From Tetrahymena thermophila SB210 (lineage: Eukaryota; Ciliophora; Oligohymenophorea; Hymenostomatida; Tetrahymenidae): a stretch of 64,000 nt of DNA. Of the stretch, positions 13,247 through 64,000 are shown piece after piece. Below the pieces are notes generated by a model. The model did not search any database. It saw nothing but the letters and a program-made list of their open reading frames with translations, and was not told where the DNA came from. The stretch spans positions 463,036 through 527,035 of the forward strand of contig NW_002476186.1 of the NCBI RefSeq assembly GCF_000189635.1, written 5' to 3'. The number at the start of each line of letters is the position of its first letter. Position 1 is the stretch's first letter. The translations under genes and the position numbers were made by a program.

Positions 13247-15295
13247 TTATTTTTCTCAATTTTGTTTAATTTTTTTGTTTTCTTTAATTTAATATTTTGA
13301 ATATTTATGATTAACAGAAGATAAATATCACATACATTTTAAATTGATTGATTATATTAATGTAGTAATATTTTCATTTTAAAAAAGTAACTTCAATTTA
13401 ATTATCAATTTGTGGTTAAAATTTTCTTTATTAACGACCATAGATTATTTATGAGGAATAGAAAATTTTGGCTTACTAATTTTTCATTTATTTTGAGGAA
13501 ATTCGAAAATAAAAATAGACATTATGTGTCTGTCTGTCTGTTCAAAATTTTATTAACAACACTTTTTTTCTAATTATAACTTCTCACTTTTTTTAATTCA
13601 TTTTTTTATTCACAACGCACATTTATCGAATTCCAAATTCTTAATTTATAATTATAGATAGTGTTTGTAAATTTTATTAACCAGTGTACTGAAAATTTTC
13701 TTTAAAGCTCTTAAGCTCTTTAAAAACTTTAGTCATTTATATTTAAAATAATTTTAATCTGGTATTTAGAATAAAAGAGATAAACAGAAATAGTTCAATT
13801 AAAATAATATTTTATGAGTGAAATGATTATCGGATATCAATTAACTTACTTCAAATTAAAATTTTTTTAATCTTTTAAACTGAATGATTAAAATATCTAA
13901 ATTTTCTATATATAAGAGTTTCATTTTAGAAAAATAAAACGAAAAAAAAAATTAGTAAATAAATAAGAACAAATTAATCAAATTAAAATTAAATAGAATT
14001 TAAAAGTATCTAACTTTAAAAGAGTAATTTTTTGAAAAAATTCAATGTATTTCCCAATTTTAAATGTTTATTTTTTCATTTTAAAAATAAATAATCTTAT
14101 TTTAAATTAAACTATTTTTAGGGGTTAGATAAATCAACAAATTTTACATCTCATAAAAATATTTTTTTAAAATTTTACAGAAAGTAAATTTTTTTGAACT
14201 CTTTCGAAAAAAAATATTCTAAACTAAAAAATAAGATTTTATCATTCAAATAAATTTGAATGAAAAATGAACTTGTTTTTATTTCTAATTTGTCAATTTG
14301 AAAATTTTAATACAATTTTATGAATTTAAAACAAAAAGTTTTTTTCACTAAATTAAAGTACTTTTGCTTGATTTTAAAATAAAGATAAATCTATCTGATA
14401 AATTTTGATTTAAAAATGAAAAAAAATCACTTAAACTCTTAGAATTTCAAAACCAAGAACAACTATAATCAAATTTAACAAATTTTGCTACTTTATTTTT
14501 GCAACTTTCAAAACATCCATCCGATTATTAAATTATAAATTTTTGAAAGAGTTTATTTTTTTTAATAAAAATATAAATTTTAATAAAGGTAATATTGCTA
14601 TAATCAGATAATTATTTCTTCAGTAAGAAATTATTGCTACTAGAGAAATAATTATCTGAGAATAGCAATAAATAGAAAAAGTATTAGATCTCGTTTAAAT
14701 AATAATATTAAGCTTAAAGTTAATAAATTTTTAATAATTTAAATAATTCTATAATTTGAGTAAAATATAGATTTATTTATGGTAAAAATGAATGCTTATA
14801 AGTATAATAAAATTTCAAATAAGCTATTTTATTCAGTGAACAATTTTTAGTAACTTTAAATAAAAAAGTAATATTTAGAAAGAAACATGTTATCAAATAT
14901 AATAAAAGAAAAGGCAAGCAATTTTGAATAATTAAATTTACTCTCGTTAAATAAATAATATAAATATTTTTAATAAATAAATAAAGATAATGAACATTTA
15001 ATAATGTAGATGACCATAATAAAAAATTAAATGATAATTAAGTAAAATTAAAATCTTAGTTATTTTCTTGATTATTTAGTATATATGTAGTTGATGGATT
15101 AACAGCAAATAGCTCATTTTACTTGGTTTCTATAATAAAAACTAAGTAAATTTAATTGCTTTTAATAATCAATCATAAGAAAGAAGATAAATAACATCAG
15201 CAAAACCAGCAAAATAAAAACAAAAAAAATTTATTAATTAAAATTTTTCGAATTTTTATAAGTTAATATATTAAAGTTGCTTAAGGTAATAATGA
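13247..15295. other. Long intergenic region between paralogue D and the cyclase gene
   Basis: Two kilobases with no convincing coding frame. It contains a (TGTC)n tract near 13527-13542 and the hairpin described separately at 14594-14669. As the two flanking genes diverge, it must hold both promoters. Confidence 0.55.
14594..14669. repeat. Inverted repeat, 26-nt arms
   Basis: The left arm 14594-14619 and right arm 14644-14669 are reverse complements at 24 of 26 positions, with a 24-nt spacer. A second, perfect inverted repeat overlaps it: ATTTCTT, loop CAGT, AAGAAAT (14614-14631). ATTGCTA occurs twice in the left part and its complement once in the right arm. It lies about 630 bp upstream of the cyclase start. 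It could be a structured non-coding element or a mobile-element relic; no function can be assigned. Confidence 0.75.
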
Positions 15296-18200
15296 ATGGA
15301 CATACACTATAAAGAAAACCTAGCTCAGTAATTATAAGTACTAGCACAAATTCGAAAGCGGCAGACCAAAAGTATTTAATAAAGAAATTATTTCAAACGA
15401 AAGCAAACAATGAAAAATATCAAAGAGAAGTAATAAATATATTTATATATCAGCCGCTTTTATAATTCTTATTACTATTATTCTACTTTGCAGCTTTCAA
15501 AGAAAGGAAAGAAATGCATTGGAAAGCAGTTTGAGTAAATAAAATAATGGCTTTTTATAATTTTAAATTAATTAGATTGAACTTTTGAATGGTGAAACAG
15601 TTTCAGTGAATGGTTTTCAGAAAGGAGTTTAACTGAAAAATAAGTTATCATTTAATTTTATTAATGTAGAACATTTAATTATTACAAATAAATAAATTAA
15701 TTGGCTAGAATAAATGCGAATTAATAGGTTCAACAACAAACAAATTTTACATTTTTAATAAAAAATAGTATAAGAACTTCATAATAGCAATAACACGAAG
15801 CTACTTTGAGCGATTTGGAAATTTGTTGATGTTTTTCTTTTATATAGTGTTTATAGTTTCTCCATATTATTCAATAGAATCTTCTTATGTCTCTTTTCAA
15901 TAGTAAAATAAATATTTCTTTGGCATACAAATTTAGCTTGATTTGCTAGCAATTCATAAAATTATATTATTTCTCAATCTATATCAATATAAACTAGCGA
16001 TGAATACAATTATTTCATTTTAGTGAGCATACTATTAAGCTTCTTTGGTTAATTAGCTATGGAACTCTACTTTGACTAAAGGAGATGGAGATTTTCTGAA
16101 TACCTAAACAATCAAGAAGTTTAGATTTTAAAAAGATTTGATGATTAAACTAGCTTTGAGCAAGATGCTAAACAAAATTCTCATATTTCAATTTATAAAA
16201 CAGTGAAAGCTAAAGATGTAGAAGTAATTAATTAAAAAATTAAATAATTTATTTCTATTTACATTTTGATAGGATTAATTCTTAATATTCGTTTTTTTCT
16301 ATTCAAGATAGGTGATATATTATTTATTAGAAAGAATGAAATTTTAGCAGCTGACGTTATTCTACTAGAAATGAGTGATAGTAGCTGCTGCTTAAATTCT
16401 TCCTTTAACGAAGGATTAACTACTCAGAAAAAAGCTATACCTCCATCAATCACTTATAGTATGTTTTTTAAAATGTTTTATTTTTTTTATATGTTTTATT
16501 TTTTAAATAAAGTATCCAAGTCTTCGAAGATAAAGGGACATCATTTTGATTACAAAAAAATATTAAACGGAATTATAGAATATGTGTCAGCTGATGTCAG
16601 AGATAAAACAAAATTTGAAGGCTTTATGAAATTATCTAAGGATCCACAAGGTATTATTATAACAAGCTAAAACATAGGGTACAGAGGCTCTGTCCTTGAA
16701 TATGCTGAATGGGCTTTAGGTATTGTGATTTACTGTGGTCATGATTGCTATTACTACAAAAAGGATAGCCAAAAAAGATTAAAGAAACCAAGTTTCTTTT
16801 CAAAAAAAAGTGGAAAGCTTTTTGCAATATCTATCTTTTTTTATTTATTTGCAGCTTTTGTTAGTGTTATTAATTATTTTACTAACTCTTGCTTTCCTGA
16901 CTTACCTCAACTTAACAGTGAAGGAAAAGAATTTAGAAATAAATCTACAGGAAGAATTGGTGTGAGCTATATGTATGATTACATATTATTTCTTCCTTAA
17001 TTTTATTACTTTGTTAATGATTTAAAAACGCTCATTTTCGCTGTCTTGTAAAATAGATATTACGAGAAAAATAAATGTATGTCTTTTAAATTAAATAAAT
17101 AAAAATTTAAAACTATTTTTCAAATTAAATAAATTTAGCATAAAAAGAAGAAAATGAAGAAAAGTAAGAACTTGATTAATAAGTTTAAGAAATAAAAGAA
17201 GAAGATGAAGAATCTTTAACAAATAAATAATCTGCATAAAGCGAAATTCAATAAAAAGTTGACTTCATTATTAAAGAGAATGCTGAATCTAGTTATGATA
17301 AACCTATTTCTCCTACTAATAACATTCCTCCGATTGAGAAGATACCTTCATTAAAAGATCTTAAGCAAAGCTAAGAACTTAATAAAAATAAATCAAAGGA
17401 CATCTCCTAAAAGCCATACATATATTCAGTTAACTCATCAAAACCTCTAGCAGATCTTACACTCACTACTCATTGTTTTTTGGATAAAACAGGCACTTTA
17501 ACTTAAGGAAGATCCTTTATGGTTCATAAACTTTATCTTGAGGAATGCTCTTACTTTATAAGTGAAAACTATGTAGATCCATTATTTAAATCAGTAAATG
17601 GAGCACACATTCACAGTGGTAAAAATATTTAGATTGATGATAACAAAATTTCAAATGAGAATGGTATGCTAACTTATTTATTTTTCATAATAAATCAATA
17701 ACTTTTTCAATTAAATTTAAAACTATTTATTTATTAAATATGAAAAAATATTTTTAACAAATTAATAATTTATTTTTATTTAAAAAAATTAGATAGATAA
17801 ATAGGAAACCTTTTGGGATTCAAAATATAACCATCTTAAAAAGTAGAGGTACAACCAAGTATATTTATAAATAACTAGATTTCGCATAGAGGCTCCATTT
17901 TAAATACTAATCCAAACATTTATACAACTATGTATACTGATAATCAAAATGATATTGTTGGAGAAGAAGGTGTTTTCCTTAGGTAGAAGCTACGTTCATA
18001 AAAAGAAAAAAAGAAAAAAATAGATTTAGAAAACATTAAATATTGTGAGCAATAAATGTAGAGCCCAAAAAACTTATTTTAAAAATCCCCAAGGAGATCT
18101 AGACAATCATTTTAGTTAGATACTAAAAATTTAATAGCAAGAGAATAGATTAGTTTTGCTTTCAATGAAGAAGAGTGCCAAAACGAATTAAATGTTCCTA

Positions 18201-21200
18201 ATCTCATTTCTATCAAAAAGAGTTCATAACAATCAATAAAATCTTCAAATCAAATAAAAAGCTAAGCTAATATTCAAGCAAATTCTTAAACTGAAGTAAA
18301 ATAAAATCAGAAGAAAGTTAGGAAAATATCTTTTGCATAAAATCTTCCTTTATCAATAGATACCTACAAGGCTAATTCAGAATTAAACACAGTAGAAAAT
18401 AATCCAGAAAGCTTTAAAAACTTAAAGCATCCTGAAATTTAAATTAACTTATTTGATTAAGATAAAGTTTCTAACTAAAATAATTCTTTTTAACACATCT
18501 CCTCACCACATAGCAGGCAATCTCCGTAAAAATTATTTATTTAGTTCCCTATTTTTCTATTTATCTATTTGCACGTTTATTTATATAATTGCTCACATAC
18601 TTGTTGTTAGTCCTCATTAATCAAAACATAAAAAAAAAAATTGGAGAGCAAGTATCCAAACAAGCATATGAAACAATTTTTGGGAATTAAAAAATGAGGA
18701 TTAATATGATTTATTTACCTATTTACTAAATAACTCCTTATTTAATTACTTATATTTTTATTTAATTGATAAAAAAAAAGAGTACCAGATTTAAATAAAG
18801 ATATTATTAACTCTTTTAGAGTCAATACATAAAATTATAATAACATTGATACTATTTCAGAAACAAGCTATGCTAGCAGTTAAGTAAAATATAACAATAA
18901 TAATAATCAATCTCCTCAAACTTCAAATAATTCATGTAAATAACACTTAGTTAATTCATATATTTTTATATATGATATTTTAATATATTAAATAGTATTA
19001 TTAAACCGATTCAGAAAAGTAACAAACGAAATTCTTCAATCTTCTTGCAATACTGATAAAAGTGATTTTTTTACAAGCAGTAAATTAGCAGGAATATAAA
19101 CTTCTAATGATTCAATTTCCCCTTTAAGGAAAATTAACAAGAGATATGCTGTTGATAGTGTAATACCTCAAAAAGATGAGCAAAGACTTTATGAAGAATT
19201 AAGATCTGAGATAGTTAAATTCGTACCTTAAAGAGAAGCAATAATTGCTTTAACTATTTGCCATGTATCTAAATCAGTTTTACATGATGAAATTTCATAA
19301 TTAATTACTGATCATTAATCAATATATGATGAGCTATTTGTTGAATTTTCTAAAAGGTTTGATTGCAGGCTAAAGTGCATAGCTAAAGGTGCCAATCATT
19401 TAGAGTATATTTTCAAGCTCAATAAAGAAATTCATATTTATGAAGTAGTCGTTCCACCTGTTTACAATTAGAGAGGAACAAGATTAGCTATTTTAGTTAG
19501 AATATTTAAAAATTATTTTCTATACACAAGGTAGTAGCTAAATTTATTAATTTTACTTATTTGTTTTTTTTTTTAATTAGAGAGGAGTTAGTTAATGTGC
19601 CATTCTATTTAAAATCTATAAGAAACTTAAAAGAAAGAATGGAAAAGCATTTGAAATATATGATTGAGAATGGATAAGTAGGTGTCCTTTTCTGTAAAAA
19701 ATAGCTAACTGAATTGTAAGCAGCTTAAATAATAGAAAAGTATATAAGCATAGAAAAAGGTTTGAACTTTTTAGAAAAAGAAAAATAAATTGAAGCTTTG
19801 TACAGAGAATAACTATCAAATATGGATATGTTAACTCTTGTTTCTCTTAAAGAAAATTTAAACCCGAATGCTAAAAGCCTGATTGAGAATTTAAGGTAAG
19901 CAAATATAAATACTTGGCTCTTGACAGGTGATGACTATTAAAGAGCCTTAGCTACTTCATATGAAACAGGCATGCTTCAAAAATTTTCTAAAAATGACAT
20001 TTTTCACTTTTAATCTGAAACAGAAGAAGAAACAATTAATTTAATGAAATCAAATTTAAAAACAATAAGAGAGCTTTTAGACTCTGATAGAACTGATCAA
20101 AAAGCAACCTCGATAAGCAGAAAATACCAAAATAGTAATTTTATTTTTTTTTTAAAAAAATTTTTATTATTTAATAAAATGTTTTGAGATTACTTAATTA
20201 ACAATTACTCATAACAAACCACGCCTTTAAATAAATTTTTAAATTTTAACTGATACCTAAAAAATCAAATGAACACTTTTTATAATAAATATGATTTTTA
20301 AAAGTTTATTATTTATTGCAAATCAGTTCAGTATTTATTTGTGATAATTTTTTTATAAAATATTTAAAATAATTTTTAATAATTAAATATTTTTATGAAA
20401 TGCTAAAAAAAATAAAAACTCATCAATATTTGTTATAATTTAGCTACATTATAAAGAGTTTATAACAGAATGTTGAGCTTTTAGAGTTAAAGTTTAAAAG
20501 TTTCAAATATTTCATAATCGAAAGGGATGAATAATCAAAAAAATCCAAATGCTGTTTAAGTTTGTGTTATTGTAAATGGATAGTGCTTGGAAAAAATATT
20601 AAATAATTAGTACTTAAAAGATCATTTTTCTTTCATATGTTTCTTTTGTGAGAGCTTGATTGGGTATTCTTTAAAGCCTAGCTAAAAAGCAGAATTAGTC
20701 TCACTGGTTAAAAATGTTAAAAGAGGTATTTAGCTATTTATTGGAAGTTTTTACAAATTTCAAATTTAAATTAATTAAATTAGATTCAACATTTACACTT
20801 GCAATTGGAGATGGGTTAAATGATTTATAAATGATGTAAAGAGCTGATTTTTCTATACAGTATTAAAATTAAAATTTAAAATCTGTATAATTTGAGCACG
20901 GCTTAGCATAAATTACTGTTTCTCAGTTAGGAGCAATTAGTAAATTAATATTTTCTTAGAGTAGGCACGAGGCAGAATTATTTGAAGAGACTTTATTCTT
21001 CACTTTTTATAGATCATTTTTTATCTTTTTTGTCGTTTTCTTTTGGAATTTCATGAGTTGTTCATATGGAGATATAGTTCTTAGCTTTTTAGACTTAATT
21101 TTAATTCACTTTATTAGCTTATTCTTTTAATCTGTATTATATTTTATAAGAAAATACTAAATGCTTTATGAGAATAAATATGATAGCTTTACAGTTATTT

Positions 21201-24200
21201 AGCAATACTTTCATAATAAATTTTACTTTTAGGACGTTTTTAAGAAATTCTTGCTCCATTTAATACCTTAATCATTTATAGATGCTTTTATTCTATTTAT
21301 TTTAATGTACTAAATGAAAAGTACTCCAATGGAATTGAATGGACGTTAAATTGAAAAAGAGTAGCTCATATTAATTACTGTGATGATTTTTTATTTTTTA
21401 GTGCATATAAAAGTGATGATTATACTCAGCCAGTCTCGCAAAACATTTATTGCAAATCTAGCATTTCCATTTATATTACTTTGCATATACATGGGAGTTT
21501 ATTATGAGGCGCAAGATGTTTCATTCTACTTTAGTCATTTAACTATATTACTAATAGCAGCTATAGTTTTAAATTTTATAGTAACCAACTTTTTTTTTAG
21601 AACTTTTATCCCACTTATTGAGGTAGGAATGATGAGAGATACTAAAATTTTTAAAAAGATATTTAAATAAATAGAAAATTAGTATTAGAAATTATTGTAA
21701 ACTTTACCTGTAAATATATTTAGTAAATAGCAATAGCAGTACTTATCTGAGTCCTAAGTATTATAGAACGAAAACAATAATTCCTATAGCAATAATTAAC
21801 AGATCAACAGAGAGCAAAATAGCAATTATAGTAATTTAAATGCATTCCAATTAAATTAACTAACAATTGGTGCTTTTAACGATAATAAATCTAATAAACT
21901 CACTGAAGAATAATAAACTGAATAAGATAATTAATCAAAAAAAAATACTAACGAGCGAACAGTAGATAACTAGATTTTTCATAAAGCAAACTATTTTATC
22001 TCAGAATAAACTTCAAATTTAAATGCAAACAATCTGAAAAACAAAGTCATAAAATAAAATGCAAATAAATATATTGATAAATTGGGCTTAGATGACATTG
22101 AATATGATAATTTACAAAATAAAACAGTACTAAGAAATAGATAAATAAGCATAACTAAAAACGTAAATTTAAAAGAACTTCACAATAGTAAAATTGAAAC
22201 TAATAGCAATCAAGGTAATTAATCTGTAAATATTTAAAATGAATAAAATATACCAAGCAATCCAAGTACTGATCGTAAATTAGGTAAACCTCAGTAATAA
22301 CAAAACTAAGAAAATATTAACAAAAATAAAGTAGAAGCTAGAAGAAAAATGAAGTTTAAAGGCTACACTTTTGACTAAATTTTTAAAATGGTATTTAAAG
22401 ACAATGAAATAGATTAAATTTTGCAAGACTTAAATACAGAAAATGTTAGTGTAATTTCATCAAAAATAGATAAAGTATTCTTACATTTCCCATCAAAAGA
22501 AATAGAACTTAAATTTGCATAAAGTATTATTTAGCAATGGTTTAGATTTTTCAGAATAAGTACAATTATCTTATCTCTTATATGCGAACTTGCTTTATCT
22601 TAAATCATGAATTACCTTTATTAAGATTAATTTGGGTTTAATCTGTATTCAGTTTCTTTTGGGCTATTTCTTCTAACATGGGGATTTATGTTTACCCCTT
22701 ATTACACAAGATTTTTCTTTAAAGTAAACTAAATACTTTTAATAATTAGAATACTCACAAGGTTAACGTATATAGTTTTCGATAGTGGGCATCCTTTCGA
22801 TAATCTATAAACAATGTTTTACTGTTAAATTTTACAATATAGTGTCAAAATAACGCCTCCAGTCTTTTTTTCCCTCTAATTTGCTGTTTCCATTTCTTTC
22901 TGCTTAAAGTTTTTAATTATTTATGATGATTATCAAGTATCTAATTCAGATGATAACTATCTTAAAATATATCTGATATTTACTACATTCATTTGCATAT
23001 TAGCTTTCTAAATTCTATGCTTTTATAAAAAATATGAATATGATTTCATTGAAAGGAAAAACTTCTAAAGAATAAATAAGGTATTTTTTCACTTTTTATT
23101 ATTTTTAATTTTTACAATTTTATTAATTTGAAAATTTTAATATGCTAAAATTATTTTTAAAATTGGATTAATTTATTATGGGGAGTAGAATATTAAGAAT
23201 ATACAATAATTTAAAATTAAAAATAATCTAATTATATTTTAAATTTTAATAAGATATCAATTGAAACTAAAAAAATAAACAATGTTCTTTCAATATTACT
23301 ACCTAAGTTTATTCTTGATAGCATAGATGAAAAAGGAAGAGAGTTTTAAGAAGACTAAGGAGATGTAGCTATTTTGTTTTGTGATATTTGTGATTTCGAT
23401 TTAATCATTTAAGAAGAACAATCGAATATAATTAAATTATTAGATAAATTGTTTAGGTTTTATGATAATGCCTGCTCAATAAATGGTATATAAAAAATAG
23501 AAACAGTTGGTAAGACATATATGGCAGCAGCAGGTAAATTATTTCCCTTTTTAATATGCTTTTTTTGGAGAGTTTGTTTTTATATTAAATTTTACAGGAA
23601 TCAAAGGAATAAAATATGATGAATCCTAGAAAAAGTTTAATATTTTTCATCCTGTAATTAGATGTATTCTAATGGCCAATCAAATGTTTGAAGCATCTAG
23701 AAAAATTACTTATAGTAAATAATAAAAATAGATTGGAATAAAAATTGGAATTCACTATGGTCCAGTGCTAGCAGGTGTTATTGGAGGTCATAAACCCTAA
23801 TTTAGTTTAATTGGGGATACTGTTAATATGGCTTCTAGAGTATGTAGCACTGGTGAAGCTAATTTTATAACTCTCTCTGAACAAGCTAAGGAAAGCTGTT
23901 AATTTGAAGTAAGTTTTTAATTTTATCTAAAATTTTAACATTTTATATAATTAATTAATTAATTAATAAATTAGCTGTAAATATTAAATGAAAAAAGATT
24001 CCATCAATAAAATGGCTTTTAAATCGTTCTTTTTGAAAGAACAGTTAATGCTAAAGGAAAAGGAAATATCAAAACATATTAAGTTAAATTTAAAAAATAT
24101 AAAAAGAAAGAAATTCATTTATTGAGAAAGTTTAGTGAAAAGCTTTTGCAATAGAGAAATTCTGTTTAGATGATCAATAACGAAAATTCCAGTAGTGACT

Positions 24201-26478
24201 CTTATTCTTCTCCTTACTATAACATGGCATCACCTAATAAAAAGAATTATAGTATATTTAGTCCTGAAGCTAATCATGGCACTTCTATAGCTGCTTTAGA
24301 CTATAGTAGATAAGGGGAAATAAAAGAAGAAACTGAAATCAACTCTTCTAATGTTATAAGTACATTCAATAATACATCTAAAAGCAAAGAAAATATTTAT
24401 ATTGAAGAATAAGTATATCATAATAAATATCTTTATAGTAATAATCCAAAAGACTTGTAGGATATCTAAGAAATAAGATCTAATTCTGTTTCTTCTAATG
24501 CATAATCTATATTTGAAGCCAATTAAGTATTTATTTATTTAAATTGATCTTTATTGTAATATTTTTTTAATTGCAAATAATTTTTTTTTATTAAATTTAG
24601 AAATAATTGGCCTACATAAAGATAATAAAGGATTTAGTAGAAGAAATACAAATAGTGCCCTAGCTAGAGCATGCTCCTATTCTTAAAGATTAAGAACTTG
24701 ATATTGAAAAAGTTAGAAGTCATTTCTAAGAATTAAAAAATGAAGCGATTAGCTTAACAAATCAGCAACATAAAATAAATTCTAAAGTAAATATTCAAGA
24801 CATTATTTTAGGAAAATACAATTTAGATCTTTAATTATTTTATGACACTGAGCTTTAAAAATCTTACCAAATGGTAAAAAGTAAAAATGCCTTTTTGTGT
24901 GGGTTTGAAATTTTTAAAATGCTTATTGCTAATTTGATGAGAGACTACTTAAGTAACGAAGGTGTATATATTACATTTTTTATGCATATGGCAAGTGCTC
25001 TGCTCTTACTTAGCACTATTTTTGGTATAAACTATATAACTCGCATAGGTCTTAAATACTTAAAGTTTATCATATTCATAATTTACTCAACTGTAATAAC
25101 ATCTATAGTTTTTGAAGGATACCTTAACATAAAATATTTTCCAAATAGATAGCTAATTAATCTTCAAACCGCTGCAGTTATTATCATTTTTTATGTCTTT
25201 CTTTCCTTTAAATTCTTCACGTAACATATTTTTGATTCGATTCATTATTCTCCATTTTTACTATTCGATATTCATCTATTTATTTTTTTTACTAAAATAA
25301 TTTATTTAATAGAATTCAAGAGAAGACATTCATTTCTTTGTGTTTAATTTTAAACTATTACATGTTTACATATGTGAATAATATTTTTGAATGGGAATAC
25401 TGCTATTTAACTTCTGCGATAATATTGAATATTCTCTACAGATCATTTATGCAATTAGAGCTTGATTTTTCAAGCTATTTACACACAAAGAGCTTAGATT
25501 AAAAGATGAATGACTAGAATAAATTACTTGAATATCTTCTACCTAAGCATATACGTGACTAATTCTTGGAAAATTAATCGAAGTAAATTAATTTAATTGA
25601 TAAATTCGATTAGGTTACTATACTCTACGCAGACATAGCAGGGTTTACAAAATACTCTGCAAGTGTGTAACCAGAGCAAGTCTTCTTCATGTTGAGGGAG
25701 CTATTTACAAAATTTGATTAAAAATGCTAAGAAAATAATGTTTACAAGCTATATACTATCGGAGACTGTTATGTTGTTATGGGCTTAGTTAATCTTAATG
25801 ATAGAAACACTGTTAAAGAAGCTATGAATGGTTAGATTACATTATTAAAAATTATTGTATTTAATATTTTTTAATATGAAAATAGTTATTGGAATGGGGT
25901 TTGAAATGATAGAAATAATCAAACAAGTGAGATCAATTGTTAACTTTGATGAACTTGATATGAGAATAGGCATACATACTGTATAAATATTTTATTATTA
26001 AATTAATAATTAATTTATATTAAATGATTTACAGGGCAGTATAATAGGTGGAGTTGTAGGAACAGGTGTTGTCAGATATGATATATATGGTCCTGATGTC
26101 GTTATAGCTAATAAAATGGAAAGTAATGGGGAAAGTGGTAGAGTTATGGTAAGCGAAGCTACCTATAACTTAGTTCATGAAGCTTCTACTGGAGTTTATG
26201 AATTTGAAAATCCACAAATAATTTAACTTTCAAGCGACAAAGACAAAGATAAAGACAAAGACAAAAACAAAGACAAAGACAAAGACAAAGACGAAGATGA
26301 AGACGAAGACGAAGACGAAGGCAAAGACAAAGACAAAGACAAAGACAAAAACAAAAACAAGACTATTAAAGCTTACTTTGTTAAAAGGCCAATTGACAAT
26401 GAATTTGATTACTTCTCGAGCTAAAATGATTCAAATTTTAATGCATATTAAAACAGAACACAATAATTTCAAATGTGA
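15296..26478 (+). CDS. Guanylyl cyclase fused to a P4-ATPase-like domain
   Basis: About 19 exons encode roughly 3,100 aa, ending at TGA 26476-26478. First exons I resolve: 15296-15429, 15494-15626, 15670-15902, 15950-16223, 16308-16458. The N-terminal part is a P4-ATPase (lipid flippase) fold: SYFERFGN before M1-M2, GDILFIRKNEILAAD, the phosphorylation loop DKTGTLT (17483), LLTGDDYQRA, and the hinge GDGLND (about 20805). The DGET actuator motif is replaced by FNEGLTTQK, and the M4 region lacks PISL. Then follow six membrane spans, a first class III cyclase half (FCDICDFD, IETVGKTYMAAAG, GDTVNMASRVC), six more spans, and a second half (YADIAGFTKYS, TIGDCYVV, YGPDVVIANKMES). The first half is C2-like with the guanine-type Glu; the second is C1-like with both metal Asp. 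This swapped order is the known ciliate/apicomplexan arrangement. It should make cGMP at a membrane. Confidence 0.93.
26236..26361. repeat. Lys-Asp / Glu-Asp low-complexity tract in the cyclase C-terminus
   Basis: An imperfect hexanucleotide repeat (GACAAA with GACGAA variants) codes about 40 residues of alternating Lys-Asp, a central Glu-Asp block, then Lys-Asp and Lys-Asn. It lies just after the second cyclase half and before the last 30 residues. It stays in frame. Such tracts vary in length by replication slippage and form charged, disordered linkers. Confidence 0.85.
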
Positions 26479-28777
26479 TATATTATTTTTAAATTTGTAT
26501 ATTATTAATTTTTAAATATAAAATAATTATTTTATGTATAAAATATCAACTTATTAATTATTTAAACATCAATTCATTTTAATGTAAATATTAGTAATTA
26601 TTTATCATTAATATCCGATTATTTTTTTTAATATAATTCTATTAACTAAGTTTTATTATTAAAATATTTTCACTATTTATTTAGGAATTCACCTTATCAT
26701 CTTTATAAAACAAATATTAAAAGTGTATTTATTCAAAAATAAATGATTAAAAATGAAGATTATGCTGCTTTCTAATTAATTTTAAGCAATCTATTTTCAT
26801 ATTTTTTTTAGATATTTTCATCTTTTGTTTAAATAATTGTTTTAATAAAAGTAGAAGTAAAAATATTTTTAACATTGTGAATAGATTTCATTGATTTATT
26901 AAAAAAATAGATTTTCAAAATAAAAATAATTTTCTAAAAATTAAAAGTTCTAATCTACTGTAAAAATGCAAATAAAGCTTCTTAACTTTATTTTTTGATT
27001 CTACATATTAAGCTTGATATTGATAAAGATAAACGAGCTGTTTTAACTAATAAAAGTATTGAATGAAAATTAGAAGTATTTATTTTTGAAATTCTAAAGA
27101 TGAATGATAAATAAAACTTTTTTAAAAACATGAATATTTCAAAATAAATATTTTAAACTTCCAAAAATTCATTTTTAGTCAAATCCTTATTTAACATTTT
27201 TTTGTATTTTTATTTCTTTATGATAGATTTTAATTTAGTTTTAGAAAAATAAAAAACAGTTAAAAATGAATTTTCATTTTTAAGATATTTTGCATACATT
27301 TTAGGGAAAAGTTATATTTAATTAAAACACAAGTAAAAAAAAATTTCTTTTATATAAATTATGATCAACATTTTATAAATAAAAAGCTTTGTTTCAAAAA
27401 AATAACAAATATAAATATAACAAATTTTAAATTCAATAGTTTGACCATTTCTATTTTTTTATAATAAAAGCTTTTATCATTCTTTATAGATAGAATTATA
27501 TTTAATCCATTAAGCAAATTTAATTATATTTAATTAAAATCCAACACTTGTTAATTTTTACTTTTATATTTACAACATTTTAAAAATTCTAATTAGCTTA
27601 ATTAATTGATAAATTATGCAATTTTTCTAGTAAATTAATTGTAATATCTTTATAAAAACGAGGAATTTAAAGTAAAAATATGTTTCAAGTTTTTAGGATT
27701 AATCAAAATAACATAAAAAAAAGTAATTTATATGGAAGTCCAAAAAATTATAAAAAAAGCTGTAAAATATTTCAAATTTTTTTTTTAATACAGTTTGAAA
27801 ATCAAAAATAGAAAATTCAATATATTCTTTACTTTTTAATTATTTCTATTTAATTTAATTATATGAAATTTTTGATAGGATTTTTATTAAGCAATTATTT
27901 ATTATAAGGAATTTATTGCTAATGGTTAAAACTACCTTTATTTCCTATTTCTAGATAAATAATAGATTTAGTAAAAATATCCCTACCTAATTGTAAAGAA
28001 TATTATTCAATGGATAGTAATTGTCTATCTATTTATAAATAATGTGGATATGTAAATAAATATATAAATCAAAATACAAATATAATTAAAAAGGAACGCG
28101 TGTGATGTGAAGAAAGTAAAAATTAATTTATTAGAGGTAAATAGAAAGATAGTTATAAGATAAACTCAATTAAATTTTGATTATATATTTCCTTTGCATT
28201 GGGACTTATTTTTTAGTTAAGGAGTTGAAAAAAATCGAGCAATATTAAATTTACTCTAATTACACTTTTTATAATGAATGTTTCTAAATTTTTTCTTCAA
28301 ATTATCTAAAATGCTAAACATTTTAATTTCCTATAAATAAGTTAAACATGCTTTGTGTTTTTATCTTCATCATTCAAGATGAGTTACTATTAATAAATAC
28401 ATATTTTAAATACCATTCAATAAAAGAAATATCTTTATTTCTTTTATATGAATGTATTTCAATTAATAGATTCTATTAATCAAGTTCTTTTATTAGAACG
28501 TGCATAGAACTCTTATAGAAATATTTAATGTGTTAATTTATAATTTTTTTTGTGTAGCAAAAGAATTTCTTTATTTTTTGGATAATCTTTATAAACGAAT
28601 CTTTCCTGTTTTCTATTAAAAAGATATAATCTGAAAACAGAGCAAATAAGATACAAGCTTCTTTGTTTGTTTGTTTGATAGATAAAAAATTTTATTTAAA
28701 ACCAACAATTATCAATTAATTTTTATAAATTTTAGTTAATAAAAATATTAAAAATTTTCTAATCAATTTTAAAAAGA
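26479..28777. other. Intergenic, AT-rich
   Basis: About 2.3 kb after the cyclase stop and before the LRR gene. I see long A and T runs, a TTTGTTTGTTTG tract near 28664, and no frame with protein-like composition on either strand. It holds the 3' region of the cyclase gene and the promoter of the LRR gene. Confidence 0.55.
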
Positions 28778-37597: not shown

Positions 37598-40499
<2,902 letters not shown>

Positions 40500-41244: not shown

Positions 41245-43203
41245 TCAAACTTTAGAAATTATTTATTTATTTTTCAAAATCTTAGTGACTAAATCTTCAA
41301 ACTTTTATGAGTCATTAATAATTGGTAAATATTCATTTGAGTCTATTATTATAACTTAGTAGTTTTAGATTTTTAAATAGAATAATTTTTATAGAAAGTT
41401 TTATCTAATTTGTGATTTAGTCTATTAATTGTGATGAATATCTCCGTTTACTTCAATGATAGTTTTCTCACCAATCAAAAAGTCAACAATATAGATGTCA
41501 TCTATTAAGACTCCTCTTTAGATTTAATCTTGTATGAGGTTTTCTTTTTGAAGCTTTTAAAAAACAGCCATAAATTTATCTTCTGTTTTAGAAGGGTTAT
41601 CGTTTGCTATTGCATATTTTTTATAAAAAGAGTATAAATCAGCTAAGAAGGAGGGTTTGAAATAGTTTTAGCTTATTTATTTTGTATTTATCAGGTAAAT
41701 TAAGTTTAAATATAATGAGCAATTTTGCTTTTCAGAGAGGGGTTGCTTAGTCATCTGCATTCTTGAAATAAGCATTTTCACAACTAAAGGTAAGTCTATT
41801 AAATTTTAGCTTGGATTGAATTTAAAATTACTATTTTCATTATAGACATATTCTATATTTTTATTCATTTGATATCCGATAAAGCATTACAAAAGAGATA
41901 GCAAATGTCTTATTTATAATTACTGGATATCTTAATTTATGCTTTTAAATAAAGATTCATACAGTTCCTCATTTTTATTGCTGTAATTTCTGATTAAAAT
42001 CCATAAGACATCAACTTTAGCTTAAGGATTAAGTGGAGGGTTTGTTTCTTCTATTTCATCTTGAAATAGCAAAGTGGGACTTTTATTTTGTTCATCTCCT
42101 TAAATAAACTTTAATACATCTTGATTTGACTATATGTAAGAATAGTTTGCTTTTTTCTATTGATTTTCTTATAATTAACTTTTTTGTTGGTTTTCATTAA
42201 TTTAAATATTGTTTTTTACCTTTTGTAAGAATACATTATAAATTTTATCATCAACATTAACGTTTTTAGAAGTTGTATTAATAAAAAGCTGAATTAGTTA
42301 TTACAAATTGATTTAATTTAAATCAAGGGCATTGAAAATCTTTAGCAACAAATCTTATCTTTAAAATTTTCCTATATACACTAATTCTGAAATTAAATCT
42401 AGTAACTATTCATTTGAATAGTTCATTGCTAAAGTATTTTCTATTATAACCTCATATAAAAGCTTATCTGAACCTATTTAATTTTCCATCATGTATTATT
42501 ATCTAAATTGTTATTCTATTTTAACTTATTGCTATTATGATTTAATTAAAAAATTGTTTTCTTTGTCAAATAGCTTGTATTATTTTTTAATTTATTAATA
42601 GTAGATTATAAGTAATTAGCATGCAGTGTAAGGAGATAATTTCATAAATTCACTAGATTTTTATAAAATATTATTAATGTGCATTGTTAATTGCTATTCA
42701 CAACTTTTATTGTTTAAGCAAAACATAGAGCTCCTAACTAGATAAATATACTCTTTGCTATTAAGACTATTATTTTAGAGCTTTAAAGTGATGTAGTTAA
42801 CTAATTCCTTTTGGTTATGCTTAAAAGCAGAATGATCTAGCAATAATAGGTTAATTATGTCTATTGGATTATATTTTTCTAAATCTTTCATAAAATTTTA
42901 GCTTGACTATGATAAAATTCTTTAAACTTCAATGCCTTTCAACTCTGAGATCCTTCCCATAGTTAAAATGCTTTTTCTTTTTACTATCATATATTTCTCT
43001 AAGTCATTATATTCTCTTGTAGAATTAAATTATTTTGTTTATTTATTAATTCCAAATTATTAAAGCTGCATTTTAGTAACATTTATTAATTATGGAGACT
43101 GCTAACTGACTGAAAAAAATTTGTTGATATTGCAAATCAAGTTTATCCTATTGTTTACTTATTTTCTATATGCAAGTTGGCTAAATCTTAAAATTTGATT
43201 CAT
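41245..43203 (-). CDS. RAP-domain protein, probably mitochondrial RNA factor
   Basis: One exon of 653 codons (652 aa), start CAT 43201-43203, stop TCA 41245-41247. The C-terminal part (about residues 570-640) is a RAP domain: YIVDFLIGEKTIIEVNGDIHH, then QNFLQKLFYLKIQNYQVIII and SNEYL. This PD-(D/E)xK-related fold marks FASTK-type and ciliate/apicomplexan organelle RNA-binding proteins. The N-terminus MNQILRFSQLAYRKQ is basic and lacks acidic residues, as expected for a mitochondrial presequence. The middle is a helical-repeat-like region with LLxLI/LLxLF motifs. It likely acts in mitochondrial RNA processing or ribosome assembly; the target RNA cannot be read. It is tightly followed by NDC80 on the same strand, 368 bp away. 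Confidence 0.85.
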
Positions 43204-43571
43204 CTTATTTATACCTTTTATACTTTGCCTATTAAACTCTAATTAAATTTTTGCAAATATCTTTCTTCAAAAATGTTAAAAGTGTATTTACAAATACTAA
43301 TTTATCTTAGAAATCTAAGATGAAATTTATTATCACTATAAATTTTTAACAATATTACATAAATTAAAGATGAATTATCATAAAATCTTAAATTATTATT
43401 TTTTTAATAAAATAAATAATAAAGCGTTATGGTTTATTTATTATTTTTAACTAATATATACAAAATAAATGTTTTATTCAATAATTTAAAGTGTTTTTAA
43501 TACTATTTATTGAGTTGTTTATAATTTAAATTATTTTATTTTTTATAAAGAAATTAATTTCTTTTTGTCTT
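43204..43571. other. Intergenic between NDC80 and the RAP gene
   Basis: 368 bp on the same strand, holding the NDC80 3' end and the RAP-gene promoter. No other feature. Confidence 0.5.
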
Positions 43572-63974: not shown

Positions 63975-64000
63975 GGGGTTGGGGTTGGGGTTGGGGTTGG
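63975..64000 (+). repeat. Telomere, (GGGGTT)n
   Basis: Four full GGGGTT units plus GG run to the end of the window, G-rich strand 3'-most, so this is the right end of a macronuclear chromosome. The unit is that of Tetrahymena and Glaucoma telomerase. Confidence 0.98.

Follow-up and report, generated by a model that had tools for sequence, protein, structure and literature searches.

Proteins in which a P-type ATPase is fused to a guanylyl cyclase were reportedly described in the ciliates Paramecium and Tetrahymena pyriformis by Linder et al. in 1999. The alveolate fusion of a P4-ATPase to a cyclase with inverted halves is already published (PMC5746546; PMC6592433), so that the fusion type is established in ciliates and apicomplexans, as stated in a first-pass annotation of the DNA analyzed here. 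That DNA, hereafter the window, is a stretch of 64,000 nucleotides of Tetrahymena thermophila SB210 (contig NW_002476186.1, positions 463,036 to 527,035), and it carries a predicted gene of this type at 15292-26478 on the + strand. By their published description, the fusions of Paramecium, T. pyriformis and T. thermophila (PAC1 and PAC2) have the same architecture, including the inverted halves. We add that a single genome holds 14 such fusions, that the actuator Glu is absent from all of them and that the phosphorylatable Asp is kept in some and gone in others. The deFuser paper gives two fusions (PMC3143110) as compared with the 14 modelled here, and neither 14 ciliate fusions nor a shared loss of the actuator Glu was found among the literature matches listed, subscription papers being mostly outside these. 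Altogether, our results favor a model in which the ATPase-like module is probably a pseudo-flippase that, embedded in the membrane, has been retained for the regulation and trafficking of a working cyclase. The interest lies more in the family-wide pattern than in the window gene itself.

The predicted gene extends from an ATG at 15292 (the annotated start, 15296, was four bases off) to a TGA ending at 26478, and comprises 20 exons encoding 3112 amino acids. With UAA and UAG read as Gln (code table 6), the model has no internal stop, and all 19 introns, of 43 to 309 bases, have GT-AG borders. The exons were predicted from sequence with a codon and splice model built for this analysis and adjusted by eye; its least certain parts are the 5' end and two junctions, 15626/15670 and 25220/25313. 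An initial self-trained model was discarded because it divided the gene into too many exons. The exon at 20784-23080, about 765 codons within an open frame of 823 codons, covers the end of the P domain with GDGLND, M5-M10, a linker and the first transmembrane (TM) block of the cyclase. Because this one exon runs from GDGLND into the cyclase part, the union of a P4-ATPase-like module and two cyclase halves in a single predicted gene is well supported, and the earlier description, which had proposed such a gene, proved largely right as a whole.

Within the module, DKTGT (17483-17497, in exon 17139-17663), TGD (19924-19932), the P-domain Lys and GDGLND (20807-20824) are all intact, the first and last of these as already annotated. 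Three other marks of an active P4-ATPase are missing, namely DGET, the PISL of M4 and the KGAD of the N domain. At the DGET position the gene has EGLT (16410-16421), which lies within the single actuator-domain exon 16308-16458 (GDILFIRKNEILAADVILLE...FNEGLTTQKK). When the loop FNEGLTTQK is set against NLDGETNLK of ATP8A1, Asp is changed to Glu and the catalytic Glu to Leu. The paralogue alignments place the exon in the same way, and EGLT stands opposite DGET in both of the P4-ATPase alignments shown by a phmmer search of PDB (6k7g and 8ox7), an independent placement that bears out the annotated loss. Only two strings of the form [DN]GE[TSG] occur in the three forward frames of 14201-27000: LNGET at 15588 lies 5' of M1 and is not the actuator, and the string at 26125 lies inside the second cyclase half. 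A missed exon supplying a normal DGET was considered and rejected, because the site lies within one exon and LNGET precedes M1. M4, in which PISL had been described as lost, reads LPQFYYFVND; ISL is indeed gone, but the proline is retained (16995-16997). A change absent from the first-pass annotation is that of KGAD to an RQEE-like sequence, Lys to Arg, across a predicted splice junction; the closest paralogue, C262, likewise has RQEE at this site.

Domain and structure searches place the module among the phospholipid-transporting ATPases. Pfam returned HAD hydrolase models, including Hydrolase (PF00702), and two Guanylate_cyc domains above their cut-offs, while the actuator model, E1-E2_ATPase, scored 18.7 bits, below its cut-off of 28.1, which indicates that the actuator part is strongly diverged. 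In phmmer searches of PDB, all eight distinct matches of the N-terminal part were phospholipid-transporting ATPases (E 0.01; best 6k7g, 4.9e-6), as were 20 of the 23 matches of the part comprising the N domain, P domain and M5-M10 (E 0.001); the other three, cation-transporting or P5B-ATPases, ranked last with E 0.00032. The P domain together with M5-M10 matched 6lcp, a phospholipid-transporting ATPase, at 9.6e-19. The P-domain motif names and some PDB molecule names used here are those that we take to apply, such as ATP8B1 for 8ox7. In sequence, order of the A, P and N domains and M1-M10, the module thus resembles the stand-alone flippases ATP8A1, Dnf1 and Drs2, from which the window gene differs by its changed catalytic base, M4 ISL and KGAD and by its fusion to a cyclase.

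Going along the gene, gene model, hydropathy and paralogue alignment assign M1-M2 to exons 15670-15902 and 15950-16223, and the remainder of the A domain with M3 and M4 to 16513-17076 by gene model and paralogues. The N domain and TGD occupy 18996-20134, in two exons separated by an intron at 19534-19580, where PF00702 also matches. Hydropathy of the window gene alone gave 17 peaks; averaged over the family, it gave ten in the ATPase module, five in the first cyclase block and six in the second; a further peak, in a cyclase domain, was false. A layout of 10 + 6 + 6 helices is therefore plausible, with 21 of about 22 helices seen. Of the two six-TM blocks described previously, the second has its six peaks but the first shows five as yet.

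The cyclase is apparently intact, as judged by its residues. Half 1, with a linker, occupies three exons (23254-24526; PF00211, 130 bits); the second TM block and the start of half 2 fill two exons at 24601-25830, by gene model, hydropathy and paralogues, and the remainder of half 2 lies at 25886-26200 (PF00211, 156.9 bits). Compared with transmembrane adenylyl cyclases, half 1 matches C2 better than C1 (51.8 versus 43.0 bits for AC9), whereas for half 2 the better match is C1 (108.5 bits versus 75.3 for C2, with AC8). Half 1 has the guanine-type Glu (23500-23502), Ser, Asn and Arg, with the second metal Asp replaced by Lys; half 2 has both metal Asp residues (25632-25634 and 25764-25766) and the phosphate Arg. 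These scores and residues agree with the swapped order noted before, with a C2-like half carrying the guanine-type Glu first and a C1-like half carrying both metal Asp residues second. The composite site is complete by residues, with Glu/Ser, Asn and Arg from half 1 and Asp, Asp and Arg from half 2, the roles of these residues being taken in part from PMC6592433.

Support for a pseudo-flippase comes also from the family to which the gene belongs. A PF00211 profile search of the 101-Mb assembly (445 contigs) gave 50 exon matches that were grouped by eye into 16 loci. Besides that of the window, 15 loci were fetched; 13 of these and the window gene align from the actuator to the second cyclase half, giving the 14 fusions, while C36 and C171 do not align as fusions, seem to be cyclases of a different kind and stand outside the 14. 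The paralogues are home-made predicted gene models (the Pfam scan covered the window gene), and their ATPase modules are 15-46% identical to that of the window gene. None of the 14 fusions has the actuator Glu, its place being taken by L, K, S, N, K, K, Q, K, Q, I, V, V, D and K. A complete PIS in M4 is found in none either. By contrast with these losses, the Gly of the A-domain GD, the M4 Pro and the P-domain Lys are each present in all 14, pump marks whose retention favors a pseudo-flippase; the KGAD Lys position holds Lys (five) or Arg (nine) throughout, and the actuator Gly is kept in 11. The first Asp of GDGxND is found in eight fusions. Seven keep the phospho-Asp of motif I, and the remaining seven have Ser, Gly, Asn or His in its place. 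Five fusions have DKTGT (the window gene, C99, C262, C39 and C122), and exact DKTG[TS] strings occur in the raw frames of the same five loci only; C422 has DKTQT and C269 has DKIGV. Motif I was placed by scanning the raw frames with a small profile, as the whole-family alignment misplaced C122 and several others, and the placements are weak for C187 (9.5 bits), C269 (6.4) and C158 (4.7), with C158 and C187 among the seven Asp losses. In the cyclase, all 14 fusions agree at each of the seven residues scored. Positions at which 11 or more fusions share one residue number 77 of 229 and 82 of 195 in the two cyclase stretches, as compared with 55 (27 + 2 + 20 + 6) in the ATPase stretch of 1584 residues.

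A control is provided by P4-ATPases that stand alone in this genome. A PF16209 search gave 23 such matches, none inside the fetched fusion loci, and ten of these were sampled by fetching 2.6 kb each. Nine of the ten keep the actuator Glu (DGET, DGEK or DGEV), as against none of 14 fusions (Fisher 7.6e-6, a value that ignores relatedness and is overstated for that reason). Within the 2.6 kb read, DKTGT was seen in eight and PISL in seven; others could be masked by introns or by the limit of the sequence read. The remaining match, at G000:C406:42850-45430, has DGQ for DGE; it counts against the control and is possibly another turnover-deficient pump.

Because the Glu is lost and the cyclase residues are kept in all 14 fusions, we favor a pseudo-flippase with a working cyclase. 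We infer that the two halves would fold together into one working GTP site, half 2 supplying the metal Asp pair and the phosphate Arg and half 1 the Glu/Ser base readers with Asn and Arg, and that this site would synthesize cyclic GMP (cGMP). The P4 scaffold is kept, and with the base that hydrolyzes the aspartyl-phosphate and the ISL of the lipid path gone, no lipid flipping by the normal cycle would be expected. A ligand, be it a nucleotide, a lipid or a CDC50-type partner, may instead set the position of the A, N and P domains, which would be passed on to the cyclase halves; in the window copy, a slow aspartyl-phosphate may also contribute to setting this position. Residue conservation across the family suggests that the conserved need is for the cyclase and the P4 scaffold rather than for the full pump cycle. 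It had been proposed that the module serves as a sensor or chaperone; regulation or sensing is a plausible function, but nothing that we found speaks for a chaperone. In Toxoplasma GC, the ATPase domain is needed for localization and function, and P. yoelii GC-beta makes cGMP without its ATPase domain (PMC6592433). Several points weigh against a pseudo-flippase. The phospho-Asp of PfGC-alpha (D756) was not replaceable in parasites and its domain is interpreted there as a functioning ATPase (PMC7858053), a result arguing that in apicomplexans the module is no mere scaffold. Moreover, the window copy retains intact P-domain motifs that a pure scaffold would not need, in the fusion C309q the actuator Glu is replaced conservatively, by Asp, and the paralogue alignments depend on the home-made models at the low identities given above.

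Alternatively, the ATPase module could have decayed into an evolutionary remnant that serves only as a membrane anchor. Its weak conservation relative to the cyclase and the loss of even the phospho-Asp in half of the fusions agree with such decay, which we nonetheless consider unlikely, as the module has been kept in 14 of 16 cyclase loci over long branches, and its P-domain Lys, M4 Pro and A-domain Gly do not vary. At the other extreme, the module might be a working flippase in which another residue replaces the actuator Glu. The window gene does have a Glu two residues upstream, in EGLT, along with its intact P domain, and the relatives in Toxoplasma and PfGC-alpha keep the Glu, the latter being read as active (PMC7858053); but the closest paralogue has CGKT without any acidic residue, the substitutes are scattered over the 14 genes and none has a complete M4 PIS, making a working pump highly improbable.

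The first-pass annotation put forward the idea that the pump can load but not turn over. Here the Asp would be phosphorylated by the protein itself from ATP and hydrolyzed very slowly, and the long-lived phosphoenzyme would gate the cyclase. The residues of the window gene fit, since DKTGT, TGD, the P-domain Lys and GDGLND are all intact and the DGET Glu that is changed to Leu is the catalytic base of dephosphorylation (PMC11460456). Moreover, the Mg-site Asp is kept in seven of seven fusions with the phospho-Asp and in one of seven without it (Fisher 0.0047, relatedness ignored), or in six of six and one of five when the weak placements C187, C269 and C158 are excluded (Fisher 0.015). However, the tree gives between one (well supported) and four independent pairs, so that co-retention is not significant; when the tree is built from the cyclase columns only, the motif I Asp label needs four changes. 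We therefore take the co-retention as a hint only. Because the phospho-Asp is lost in seven of 14 fusions, such a trap cannot account for the family as a whole, and KGAD is altered in the window gene itself. Loading without turnover is thus a possible description of the window copy and some paralogues, and as a general explanation a phosphoenzyme switch is a tentative idea that we doubt. If the co-retention were real, autophosphorylation would have been kept as a unit in about half of the family and self-dephosphorylation dispensed with in all 14. It is tempting to speculate, although we think it improbable, that at least five of the 14 fusions have kept autophosphorylation and dropped self-dephosphorylation, so that an aspartyl-phosphate set by ATP and cleared externally would act as a timer or memory gating the cyclase, with the Asp-less sisters using ligand binding alone.

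The apicomplexan relatives combine these features differently. Plasmodium GC-alpha and Toxoplasma GC share with the window gene the fusion, the composite cyclase and DKTGT, but they keep the Glu (LNGET and LDGET; PMC6592433) where the window gene has EGLT. In M4, PfGC-alpha has PISI (PMC7858053) against PQFY, and its GDGxND is degenerate (PMC6592433) where GDGLND is intact in the window gene. Plasmodium GC-beta is likewise a fusion, but its ATPase domain is degenerate and the majority of the signature residues are not identifiable (PMC6592433), unlike the window gene, in which the P-domain motifs are intact and the scored losses are the actuator Glu, the M4 ISL and KGAD.

The question of how, in alveolates, a fused pump controls its cyclase could be approached in the 14 Tetrahymena paralogues. 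All without the dephosphorylation base and differing in the phospho-Asp, they form a natural mutant series that would separate pump chemistry from cyclase control in a manipulable genus and without parasite work. In receptor guanylyl cyclases, a pseudoenzyme domain of kinase homology regulates the fused cyclase; the likeness is one of analogy only, these proteins being unrelated and different in fold and topology.

CDC50.1 and UGO are partners of Toxoplasma GC, which responds to phosphatidic acid (PMC9600588). In the Tetrahymena genome, CDC50 gave 14 exon matches, 12 of them above the cut-off. Five CDC50 exon matches lie within 3 kb at G000:C290:41977-45025, one with an internal TGA; there are apparently at least two tandem CDC50-like genes at this place, which are candidate partners.

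Finally, we note some features of the surrounding DNA. After cyclase half 2, an in-frame array of 20.8 copies of the hexamer GACAAA (26236-26360, + strand) encodes a charged Asp/Lys/Glu tail, and no such tail is visible in the alignment of C262. The window, whose genes read through when UAA and UAG are taken as Gln, has a G+C content of 22%, is the last 64 kb of a 527-kb contig and has the character of a macronuclear-type contig end; a (GGGGTT)n telomere at 63975-64000 reaches its last base, which indicates that the window is a chromosome end. Four of the 14 fusions lie on this contig, no two of them sisters in the trees, and two, C309m and C309q, are seemingly divergent neighbors near 102 kb. 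In a domain scan that covered ten of the 30 long frames of the window, the frame at 37830-40496 (+) matched a protein kinase domain (6.3e-19) and that at 41248-43266 (-) matched DUF559 (4e-6).

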